A DNA stretch of 64,000 bases. Source: Rhodospirillales bacterium BBD 1991-14. Its GTDB lineage: Bacteria; Pseudomonadota; Alphaproteobacteria; Kiloniellales; Kiloniellaceae. The position numbers and the translations under genes were made by a program. The stretch lies in the NCBI GenBank assembly GCA_001657395.1, contig LYSY01000001.1:744001-808000 (forward strand), written 5' to 3'. The notes under the pieces were generated by a model. The model saw only the letters and a list, made by a program, of their open reading frames with translations. It made no database searches and was not told the origin of the DNA. This document shows positions 4,805-34,997 of the stretch, in pieces. The stretch's first letter is position 1. Each line of letters starts with the position of its first letter.

Positions 4805-4834
4805 TTGCCGCCTGCCGCGAATCAGGGCGATAGT
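4805..4834 (+). promoter_or_regulatory. Candidate sigma-70-type promoter for the small ORF
   Basis: TTGCCG (4805-4810), 18 bp, GATAGT (4829-4834). Each hexamer matches the consensus at four of six bases. Starting near 4841, the transcript would have a roughly 30-nt leader ending in the strong ribosome site and would stop at the terminator at 5005-5036. A perfect TATAAT at 4777-4782 lacks a spaced -35 partner. Confidence 0.35.
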
Positions 4835-4856
4835 CGAAGTCCTGTTTCAACAGCTG

Positions 4857-4870
4857 AAAGGAGGTGATCC
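4857..4870 (+). promoter_or_regulatory. Full-length Shine-Dalgarno sequence AAAGGAGGTGATCC
   Basis: These 14 bases are the exact complement of the conserved 16S rRNA 3' end (GGATCACCTCCTTT). The core GGAGG is 7 nt from the ATG at 4872. No other gene in the window has anything comparable; most show only 4-6 matching bases. Confidence 0.75.
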
Positions 4871-4871
4871 A

Positions 4872-4952
4872 ATGTCTCATGAGATTTCGGTGAAGTCTGA
4901 AGGCCTTGGATGTTCATGGGGTTTGACGGAGCAGCCTTCGTCCGACACATGA
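4872..4952 (+). CDS. Small ORF of 26 codons with perfect ribosome site; unknown function
   Basis: It encodes a 26-residue peptide starting MSHEISVKSEGLGCSW and ending SSDT, with one Cys and one Trp and no signal or membrane segment. I do not recognise a family. Support for translation is the 14-base Shine-Dalgarno match immediately upstream and the compact transcription unit around it (candidate promoter 4805-4834, terminator 5005-5036). A hairpin (GACGGAG 4925-4931 with CTTCGTC 4936-4942) lies inside its 3' part. It could be a leader peptide, a free small protein, or an RNA whose ORF is incidental. It is not positioned to attenuate a downstream gene, because the next gene is on the opposite strand. 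Confidence 0.5.
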   Translation: MSHEISVKSEGLGCSWGLTEQPSSDT

Positions 4953-4964
4953 CACCTTCGGAGC

Positions 4965-4984
4965 GGGACCCCGTTTCGGGGCCC
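4965..4984 (+). other. GC-rich hairpin between the small ORF and the terminator
   Basis: GGG-A-CCCCG (4965-4973), loop TTT, CGGGG-CCC (4977-4984). The stem has one bulged A and no T-tract follows. It may protect the 3' end or alternate with other structures in the short transcript. Confidence 0.4.
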
Positions 4985-5004
4985 TAAGACTCACCAGCTC
5001 ATGG

Positions 5005-5036
5005 GGGGCCGCAGCGATGCGGCCCCTTTCATTTTT
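5005..5036 (+). terminator. Rho-independent terminator of the small-ORF transcript
   Basis: Perfect 9-bp stem GGGGCCGCA (5005-5013), loop GCGA, TGCGGCCCC (5018-5026), then TTTCATTTTT. The T-tract is on the plus-strand side only, so it does not serve the kinase gene that ends at 5100 on minus. Confidence 0.85.
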
Positions 5037-5099
5037 GCCTCCGGCTGGCGGGTCATGCAGGAGAGTGGAACCGGCCCTCTACCAGGCTCTGCAAACAGG

Positions 5100-6602
5100 C
5101 TAGGCCAGACGCTTCTGGCGGATCGCGCGCTCCGGCGGGAAGCTCACCGTCACCGTCGTGCCCTCGCCGAGTGCGCTCTCGATCGTCATGGCGCCGCCAA
5201 ACAGCTTCATGAAGTTGTCGCAGAGATGCAGGCCGAGGCCCGTGCCCTTGTGCTCGCGGGCGCGTGGATTGTGGGCCTGTTCGAAGGGCTTGAGGGCTTT
5301 CTTGACGCCCTCGCTGGTCATGCCGATCCCGTTGTCCGCAACACTGAGAAAAACGCAGTCGCTGTCATCGCACCAGGACTTCACCTGGATCAGACCGCCT
5401 TCGGGCGTGAACTTGACCGCATTCGACAGCAGGTTGTTCAGGATCTGCGTCAGCACCCTCTCGTCGCCTCTGAGGACGGGCACCTTCCCGTCGACCTCCG
5501 CTTTCAGCCGGTGGCCGGCGGCCTCGGCGCCGGCGGCGACCTGGCGGATGCAGCTTTCGATGAGGGCGCGCATGTCGACCGGCTCTTCCACCAGCTCGTA
5601 CTTGCCCGCCTCGACCTTTGAAATGTCGAGCAGGTCGTTGATGAGGCTGATCAGCAGCGATCCGCTGTGGTGGATGTCTTCGATGTATTCGTCATAGCGC
5701 GGGTCGCCCAGCGGGCCGAAGGCATGGGCGCGCATCATTTCACTGAAGCCCAGGATGGCATTCAGCGGGGTGCGCAGGTCGTGGCTCATGTTGGCCAGGA
5801 ACTCGGTTTTGGCCCGGTTCGCCTCGACCGCCTGCTGGCGTGCGCTCTCCAGCTCCGCCGTCCGCTCGGTGACGCGCTGTTCCAGATTGGCGTTGGCACG
5901 GCGCAGTTCCCGCTCCACCTGCTCGACGCGCAAGCCCTTTTGCCGCAGCCGCTCCAGGGCCTCGGCCATCCGGCTGACCTCATCGTCGCGGCCGCGCTCG
6001 GGAACCGGCGTGTCGAAGGCCCCCTCGCCGATCCGGATCATCGCTGCCGTGACCCGCGACAGCGGACCTGAAATCAGGTTTACCCCCAGAAAGACCACAA
6101 CGGCTGTGATCACCGCCAGGGTGGCCGCGGTGGTCGCATCGTGGCGAACCACACTCCAGACGGTTGAAGAGACGCCGGCGGTCGAAACCCAGAGAAAAAG
6201 CGTTCCGACCCGTTCGCCGCCCTCAGCCGTGATGGTGCGGTCGAAGACCAGATAGTCGCCCGCGACCTGCGGATCGAACGTATCCACCAGCACTTCGGCC
6301 AGTTTCTCACCCTGATTGTCGAAGACGCGGGCGCCGGTGATCGCGCCGGTGGCCGCCAGACGGTCCAGACGCTGCTGAACCATTTCGTAGTCATAGTCCC
6401 ACAGGGGATCCGAGAGGGTGTCGCCGAAGACGCTGGTAAGGACCTGAGATTCCGCCTTCAGGTCATTGAGCTGTCGCGTTGCCTGATCGCGGCCCGACAA
6501 TGCCGTGCCCAGCATCGACACCAGGACCACTGTCGCCAGCACCGTTACCACGATCCGGTTCCGGATCGAATTGCCCGGAAGTTTCAGACGCTTGAGCTGC
6601 AT
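5100..6602 (-). CDS. Orphan membrane sensor histidine kinase (HAMP-HisKA-HATPase)
   Basis: The 500-residue inner-membrane kinase has a TM segment at about 17-36, a periplasmic sensor of about 120 residues, a second TM at about 158-178, a HAMP linker (about 179-225) and a short coiled coil. The HisKA box FLANMSHDLRTPLNA puts the phosphoacceptor at His274. The ATPase domain has its N-box at about 385-400, DNGIGM at 423-428 and GTGLGL at 453-458. All catalytic motifs are intact. It has no receiver domain and no response regulator lies within the window, so its target is unlinked. It is divergent from a solute-binding protein gene (start 6839), which could be a ligand partner or a target; that link is inference. 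The sensor region is not one I recognise. Confidence 0.88.
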   Translation of the reverse strand: MQLKRLKLPGNSIRNRIVVTVLATVVLVSMLGTALSGRDQATRQLNDLKAESQVLTSVFGDTLSDPLWDYDYEMVQQRLDRLAATGAITGARVFDNQGEKLAEVLVDTFDPQVAGDYLVFDRTITAEGGERVGTLFLWVSTAGVSSTVWSVVRHDATTAATLAVITAVVVFLGVNLISGPLSRVTAAMIRIGEGAFDTPVPERGRDDEVSRMAEALERLRQKGLRVEQVERELRRANANLEQRVTERTAELESARQQAVEANRAKTEFLANMSHDLRTPLNAILGFSEMMRAHAFGPLGDPRYDEYIEDIHHSGSLLISLINDLLDISKVEAGKYELVEEPVDMRALIESCIRQVAAGAEAAGHRLKAEVDGKVPVLRGDERVLTQILNNLLSNAVKFTPEGGLIQVKSWCDDSDCVFLSVADNGIGMTSEGVKKALKPFEQAHNPRAREHKGTGLGLHLCDNFMKLFGGAMTIESALGEGTTVTVSFPPERAIRQKRLA

Positions 6603-33956: not shown

Positions 33957-34853
33957 TCAGCCGCCTGTGGTGGCTTCCTTGGGCGCCTCGCTCTCAGAGG
34001 CGGCCTCGGCCGCTCCGGTGACGGGCTCTGCAGTGGCTTCCGGCGCTGCTTCCGGTGCCGCTTCTGCAGGCGCCGCGGCCGGCGCCTCGCCGGCTGCCGG
34101 CGCTTCGGGCAGGACCTCCACGGGGGCCTCTTCCGCTGCCCCGGCGTCACCGCCGGTCGCCGTGAGCTCGGCCTGAATGCCGTCCAGGACCGCATCGGCG
34201 ATCAGATCGCAGTAGAGGCTGATGGCGCGCAGCGCATCGTCGTTTCCGGGGACCGGGAAGGTCACGCCCTTGGGATCCGAGTTGGAGTCCAGGACACCGA
34301 TGACGGGGATATTCAGGTTCGTGGCCTCGTCGACGGCGATGTGCTCCTTGTTGGTGTCGATCACGAAGATGACGTCCGGCAGCCCGCCCATCTCCTTGAT
34401 CCCGCCAAGGGCGCGCTCCAGCTTGTCGCGCTCGCGGGTCAGGTTAAGCAGTTCCTTCTTGGTCAGCCCGATGTGTTCTTCAGCGAGCTGGTCCTCGACC
34501 GTGCGAAGCCGCTTGATGGAGTTGGAGATGGTCTTCCAGTTGGTCAGCATGCCGCCCAGCCAGCGGTGGTTCACATAGTACTGACCGCAGCGCTTGGCCG
34601 CCTCGGCCACCTTTTCGCTCGCCTGACGCTTGGTGCCGACGAAGAGCACGCGGCCGCCGCCGGCCACGATGTCGCGCACTGCGACAAGGGCCTGGTTCAG
34701 CAGCGGCAGGGTCTGCTCCAGATCGATGATGTGAACGCCGTTGCGGGCCCCGAAAATGAACGGGGCCATGCGCGGATTCCAGCGGCGGGTGGTATGTCCA
34801 AAGTGGACGCCAGCTTCCAACAGCTGACGCATCGAGGGGCTCGGAAGCGCCAT
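33957..34853 (-). CDS. rpsB: 30S ribosomal protein S2
   Basis: The 298-residue protein is longer than the roughly 240 residues of E. coli S2. The core reads [15 protein letters not shown]-like ([20 protein letters not shown]) through the coiled-coil region and [21 protein letters not shown]. The last about 60 residues are a low-complexity Ala/Glu/Pro-rich acidic tail (from about 235). Such tails are common in alphaproteobacterial S2. GGAGAAG before the ATG is a good ribosome site. It is transcribed with tsf from the promoter at 34998-35026. Confidence 0.97.
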
Positions 34854-34997
34854 GAGATCTTCTCCGGTTGGTCCACCGCGGGCCTGTCATCGGGGCGCTG
34901 CCAAGGTTGGGCCAAGGCAGCGACCTGACACCGGAGCGACGGTCGGGATGTCTCCCCGCCAGCCGCAATGCCCGCGTGTGAGATTGAAAACGTGGGG

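Follow-up and report, generated by a model that had tools for sequence, protein, structure and literature searches.

Within a 64,000-nt stretch of the genome of Rhodospirillales bacterium BBD 1991-14, referred to below as the window, the following parts of a putative small transcription unit were identified:

4805–4834, + strand: promoter-like site with TTGCCG (4805–4810), 18 nt and GATAGT (4829–4834), recognized in the sequence by eye
4841–4871, + strand: short 5′ UTR, from an inferred transcript start, with a TTCAACA block (CAACA at 4848–4852)
4856–4871, + strand: extended Shine-Dalgarno (SD) sequence of 16 nt, complementary to the general alphaproteobacterial 3′ tail of 16S rRNA
4872–4952, + strand: 26-codon open reading frame (ORF), MSHEISVKSEGLGCSWGLTEQPSSDT, with ATG at 4872 and stop codon TGA at 4950–4952
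4906–4911, + strand: TTGGAT, the first arm of a predicted lock, whose predicted partner is ATCCAA (4867–4872), which covers the end of the SD and the start codon
4928–4940, + strand: 16S-tail look-alike, GGAGCAGCCTTCG, of which GCCTTC is predicted to pair with the SD core GGAGGT
4964–4985, + strand: GC-rich hairpin 3′ of the stop codon, ends approximate
5003–5036, + strand: intrinsic terminator, consisting of an 11-pair stem (5003–5028) and a T-rich tail

The compact order given in the original prediction, in which the ORF is followed by a GC-rich hairpin and then by a terminator, is present in the sequence. The next gene on the 3′ side encodes a histidine kinase and lies on the minus strand (5100–6602). 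The unit is therefore delimited downstream by a terminator and an opposite-strand neighbor, and its promoter is placed by eye and by position only: a scan for sigma-70 promoters gave no match in the unit, and TTGCCG occupies the same position as the TTG that is enriched among related units (see below). An overlapping frame, beginning with ATG at 4910 or 4949, is open through the GC-rich hairpin to a TAA at 4985–4987. Elsewhere in the window, positions 34850–34980 on the minus strand match the Rfam rpsB sRNA (RF01815) with 57 bits against a cut-off of 40.

The SD contains AAAGGAGGTGATCC, an exact 14-base complement of the 16S 3′ end as predicted, at 4857–4870, and no second exact copy turned up in the 5.5-Mb genome. 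The predicted spacing of 7 nt holds for the GGAGG core, which lies 7 nt before the ATG, and not for the 14-mer, which ends 1 nt before it. The eight genomes of the genus yielded no 16S gene (0/8), so that the general alphaproteobacterial 16S tail was used in place of the genome's own; with this tail the complementary run reaches 16 nt (GAAAGGAGGTGATCCA, 4856–4871), and the unit then has the arrangement of the rreB/rreR kind, namely a 16S complement of at least 16 nt directly before a tiny ORF. With up to two mismatches allowed, chance alone would give 0.28 matches per window, and at least one match was obtained in 24 of 100 shuffles; a chance origin of the SD match was rejected on the basis of the shuffles, the sole copy in the genome and the pattern's near-restriction to the class. 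An isolated 16-bp duplex of the SD with the 16S tail has a computed energy of −29.6 kcal/mol, and the cost of opening the SD in the 5′ part was computed as 5.9 kcal/mol for the window, 5.6 to 12.0 for the other seven genus members and 8.9 as the mean of the related units. The very high expression that had been expected from so extended a ribosome site is unsupported, the SD being mostly paired in the predicted folds of the 5′ part.

Conservation in relatives, on which the original prediction had been staked, was confirmed, the unit being kept in all eight genomes of the genus searched, its own included, with 88–100% identity. Within the taxonomic family of the window, a search that allowed up to two mismatches gave matches in 8/8 genus members and in 4/4 genomes of genus g4, one of which has an additional second place with two mismatches; genus g3 gave one single-mismatch match among nine genomes, and genera g2 and g5, with two genomes between them, gave none. 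A relaxed pattern matched 33 of the 61 genomes of the order, and a strict CAACA pattern 22 of 385 genomes of the class. Across the phylum, a pattern of SD plus start codon matched 37 of 249 genomes: 36 among the 67 from Alphaproteobacteria and one among the 182 from elsewhere in Pseudomonadota, counts that represent pattern matches of which only a part was inspected; in the single match outside Alphaproteobacteria, GATCG replaces GATCC. One copy per genome is the rule, with two places in one genome (G052). Among the matches listed, named contigs include those of Sphingomonas, Novosphingobium, Bradyrhizobium, Mesorhizobium, Microvirga, Bosea, Brevundimonas, Roseomonas and Salipiger. Units were also observed on contigs labelled as Phycisphaerales (L048) and Ramlibacter (L160), outside the class, which are possibly mis-binned.

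For comparison, 121 units that are less than 80% identical over the 80 nt after the SD were chosen by greedy selection; since the loci had been collected, among the matches listed, by the SD pattern itself, the SD length and the conserved block in these units are partly given by construction. A −35-like TTG was identified 38–43 nt upstream of CAACA in 59 of the 121 units (with no such match in 43), and CAACA is preceded by T in 77% of them. Between +45 and +260, a scan of 113 of the 121 units identified a terminator-like site in 78, versus three sites in the same scan at +400 to +615 of those loci, which served as a control. The position of the TTG and the enrichment of terminators over the control suggest an independent transcript of roughly 150–200 nt. 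As read from the sequence, the unit is a putative assembly of promoter-like site, leader of approximately 30 nt, 16-nt SD, tiny ORF and terminator that is usually present in single copy and is class-wide. At two Rhodobacterales loci (L051 and L054), a near-full anti-SD (CCACCTCCTT and CCACCTCCTG) lies between the ORF and the terminator.

Secondary structure prediction for the first 91 nt indicated that the SD tends to pair with downstream sequence (hereafter the lock). This pairing amounted to 0.70, versus 0.54 in dinucleotide shuffles (121 units, Wilcoxon P 1.7e-14), and to 0.71, versus 0.55, in codon-order shuffles (115/121 units, P 2.7e-14); the units are related by descent, so that these and all other P values given here are too small. 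At the level of single units, p 0.05 was reached by 17/121 in the dinucleotide test, with 0.13 for the window and 0.02 to 0.35 for the other genus members. A test for contiguous stems, from which three of the 121 units were left out on account of short flanks, gave p ≤0.05 in 36 of 118 units and 0.21 for the window. In the predicted 91-nt fold of the window, GGAGGU pairs with GCCUUC and AUCCAA with UUGGAU; the lock arms, TTGGAT included, are invariant across the eight genus genomes, which leaves no variation within the genus.

Variation is found among the more distant units. The SD reads GATCC in 120 of the 121. In 48 of these 120, GG[AG]TC lies between +26 and +56; two 30-nt stretches further downstream gave counts of 12 and 11. 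The base after GATCC and the base before GG[AG]TC form a Watson–Crick pair in 33 of the 48 units, where 15.7 are expected, a result seen in 0 of 5000 permutations, and the pairs comprise A-U (16), G-C (14), U-A (2) and C-G (1). The next base in the same stem pairs in 31/48 versus 24.3 expected (P 0.015), and the two control stretches gave 6/12 versus 6.0 expected and 5/11 versus 3.4. Within Acetobacteraceae alone, the same position is A-U in four units (L065, L126, L140 and L141) and G-C in three (L092, L094 and L121). In 15 of the 48 units, Bradyrhizobium loci among them, the covarying position is not Watson–Crick, two being G-U. These predictions support a model in which the 5′ part alone would lock the SD against segments within the ORF, some of which resemble the 16S tail.

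The second arm in the window belongs to a segment that resembles the 16S tail GGATC-ACCTCC. A sequence like GGAGCARCCTCY was identified inside the ORF in 22 of the 121 units, versus a mean of 0.64 and a maximum of 2 in shuffles. It is read in frame 0 in 14 units (as EQP, EQS or GQP; the window has EQP), in frame 2 in seven (SSL, SNL or SSF) and in frame 1 in one. GGAGGU folds onto the look-alike in 32 of 35 distinct sequences (not in L050, L101 or L132), which is a measure of consistency and not of enrichment, as the 35 were picked for having a look-alike, and no significant covariation of the base after GATCC was detected in the look-alike group (13/21, P 0.15). The ORF resembles a repository for a segment that imitates the 16S tail. 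Because the lock segments either covary or are used in different frames, the model that they are constrained as nucleotides more than as peptide is supported.

Folding at full length gave a different picture. When the 3′ part up to +165 was included, the lock fell to 0.28 with the natural 3′ part, versus 0.45 with a shuffled one (117/121 units, 1.1e-8), and the SD was free at 0.35 versus 0.28 (117 units, 1.7e-6), all of these values coming from folds computed at equilibrium on stretches of fixed length, which may extend beyond the terminator. The modelled folds thereby support the view that the natural 3′ part would release the lock to a greater degree than expected by chance. In the genus consensus fold the 3′ part pairs with the ORF and the lock does not appear, nor does it appear in the minimum free energy (MFE) fold of 4830–5040; when 195 nt were folded, the SD paired chiefly with the ORF region in 38 of 117 units only, with the window at 0.02. 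Over the full length, the SD was locked a little less by natural ORFs than by shuffled ones (0.28 vs. 0.33, P 0.04). A static lock of the whole transcript was accordingly rejected on the MFE fold, the genus consensus, the 195-nt folds and the ORF shuffles at full length, and because it was not borne out, a two-state reading was adopted.

The best explanation, to which we assign a probability of about one half, is that the window RNA would be a two-state small mRNA of the extended-SD kind in which translation matters and the peptide does not. The RNA would have two states. A 30S subunit would have to catch the SD either ahead of the emergence of the look-alike or once the 3′ part had displaced the look-alike, and the translating ribosome would itself hold the lock open. 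The functional event would then be translation of the ORF rather than its peptide, and this translation would link what becomes of the RNA, be it its stability or an activity in trans, with free 30S subunits and with the transcript being completed. In hok-type mRNAs, a metastable fold of the nascent 5′ part differs from the fold at full length and gates the ribosome site; the comparison concerns the manner of working only, the window unit being without a toxin-like product. An extension of the model to the whole class is possible, if somewhat on the unlikely side: there, a 16S-tail look-alike in any frame of the ORF would compete for the SD and later be removed by the 3′ part, so that the RNA would measure free 30S subunits or the rate of initiation, with a throw-away peptide and translation as the readout.

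By its sequence features, the window unit is regarded as one more example of the extended-SD small mRNAs (rreB, rreR and Rfam CC2171), a kind that has been described in part. The rreB and rreR RNAs are reportedly tiny monocistronic mRNAs with an SD of at least 16 nt, and similar sites are said to occur in Rhodospirillales, among others. The rreB RNA is reported to co-sediment with 30S subunits, with which the earlier idea of an RNA engaging them is in line; it is also said to be weakly translated, with the extended SD and the GTG hampering translation, and to be stabilized by mutation of the start codon to a stop codon. The window unit shares with these RNAs a tiny ORF behind an SD of at least 16 nt, but differs in its 26 codons, its ATG start, an unrelated peptide and the look-alike GGAGCAGCC near the end of the ORF. 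Bradyrhizobium loci encode VS(F/Y)TKRCHLAGIAR in 14 codons from GTG, and Rhodobacterales loci have ORFs of 18 codons, which agrees with what is reported for rreB and rreR; the window encodes neither the 14-aa peptide of rreB proper nor the 18-aa Rhodobacterales peptide of rreR proper. A passage of PMC7298713 cites Hahn et al. (2017, RNA Biol 14:1353) for the rreB/rreR small mRNAs, and a table in PMC7217052 lists two small proteins, one of 14 aa from Bradyrhizobium and one of 18 aa from Dinoroseobacter, as unstructured; these are probably the rreB and rreR products. The unit itself is undescribed in passages of these two articles and of PMC5082802, PMC4117421, PMC12559287, PMC10117765, PMC12218461 and PMC13009471, and the terms sought for it are absent from PMC4842269.

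The statement that no family exists stands for the peptide, for which a known family was rejected (0 Pfam and 0 NCBIfam matches), and fails for the transcript, CC2171 and rreB/rreR being of the same kind. Rfam CC2171 (RF01867), a Caulobacter sRNA, matches the window with 48.2 bits (E 3.2e-9), under the gathering cut-off of 75; 9 of 17 related loci scanned are above it. The window aligns over the whole model and has the CAACA–SD–start block in common with it, but the middle part aligns poorly, and Rfam files CC2171 as a non-coding sRNA. Two further Rfam families, BjrC68 and mmgR (suhB), overlap the unit at the hairpin and terminator only (4952–5042), with 19.9 and 14.3 bits versus cut-offs of 39 and 41, and their matches lack the SD and the ORF start. 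These comparisons suggest that CC2171 and rreB/rreR form one alphaproteobacterial kind; no paper linking them was found in the open-licence literature, outside which the key papers lie. The filing of CC2171 and the scores of the related loci and of the window favor a trans-acting sRNA, in which the SD-like and hairpin regions would pair with other RNAs and the ORF would be secondary. This is nevertheless unlikely, given that the window falls short of the CC2171 cut-off, that the ORF length is tight, and that ATG, GTG or TTG stands directly behind the SD in the 188 loci compared.

Another alternative is that the 26-residue peptide itself would be functional, its optimal ribosome site giving high expression. 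The ORF has 26 codons in 8/8 genus genomes, ending in TGA (4), TAA (3) or TAG (1), and pN/pS in the genus is 0.46, which leaves room for a peptide. Across 12 equal-length groups, defined by the analyst as sequence patterns, pN/pS ranges from 0.34 (Bradyrhizobium, with very few changes) to 1.55 (Mesorhizobium, with few changes); it is at least 0.70 in 11 of the 12 and amounts to 0.77 (EQP, 26 codons), 0.94, 0.92 and 1.36 (Sphingomonadales) in the larger groups. The interquartile range of ORF length is 19–26 codons versus 7–50 and 2–43 in the other frames, and all three stop codons are used at the same codon in 9 of 12 groups. In most groups the peptides show little coding constraint, and the ORF length is tight. 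An exception is family f7, in which the same leader drives a secreted-looking protein of 59–63 aa with pN/pS of 0.42 (seven sequences). A functional peptide, although favored by this family and by the value for the genus, is decidedly improbable in view of the 11 groups with high ratios, the remaining one having very few changes, of the reading of one nucleotide motif in different frames, and of the listing of the probable rreB and rreR products as unstructured (PMC7217052). At L012, L017, L018, L169, L171–L175, L060 and L115, the same CAACA-extended SD block drives a secreted-looking protein of 56–63 aa, its signal peptide judged by eye; at L012, L017 and L018 the locus lies, again by eye, between leuB-like and asd-like genes.

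It is very improbable that the RNA acts as a sponge, in which the 16-nt SD would hold free 30S subunits and lower initiation elsewhere, with translation incidental. The length of the complement and the reported co-sedimentation of rreB RNA with 30S subunits are consistent with it; a sponge, however, needs neither a tight ORF length nor a complement within the ORF, and it would demand great abundance from a gene present in single copy.

A leader or attenuator of a neighboring gene, for which trpE upstream in 6/8 genus loci might speak, can hardly be entertained and was rejected, as the original prediction had also concluded, since the terminator follows the unit and the next gene, found at 1/8 genus loci, is on the opposite strand, so that no same-strand regulated gene lies downstream. 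A GST-like stretch is likewise found in 6/8 loci, each locus having covered at most approximately 1.5 kb of upstream sequence, and clustering of neighbors, which takes in antisense and spurious ORFs, gave no cluster covering more than 9 of 157 loci. In seven Microvirga loci (L082, L096, L106, L112, L127, L146 and L154), the unit is, by eye, divergent from prfC (release factor 3), and in L154 a distance of 42 nt separates the end of the prfC-like gene from that of the SD.

In adding one more member to a kind already described in part, the unit is ordinary, and its interest looks to lie in the apparent store for a look-alike and in the apparent two-state RNA. The extended-SD small mRNAs gain from it a testable mechanism, with a 16S-tail look-alike in the ORF and two predicted RNA states. 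If this is true, the cell would read ribosome availability by letting an RNA compete directly with the ribosome, and the act of translating may outweigh the little peptide in importance.
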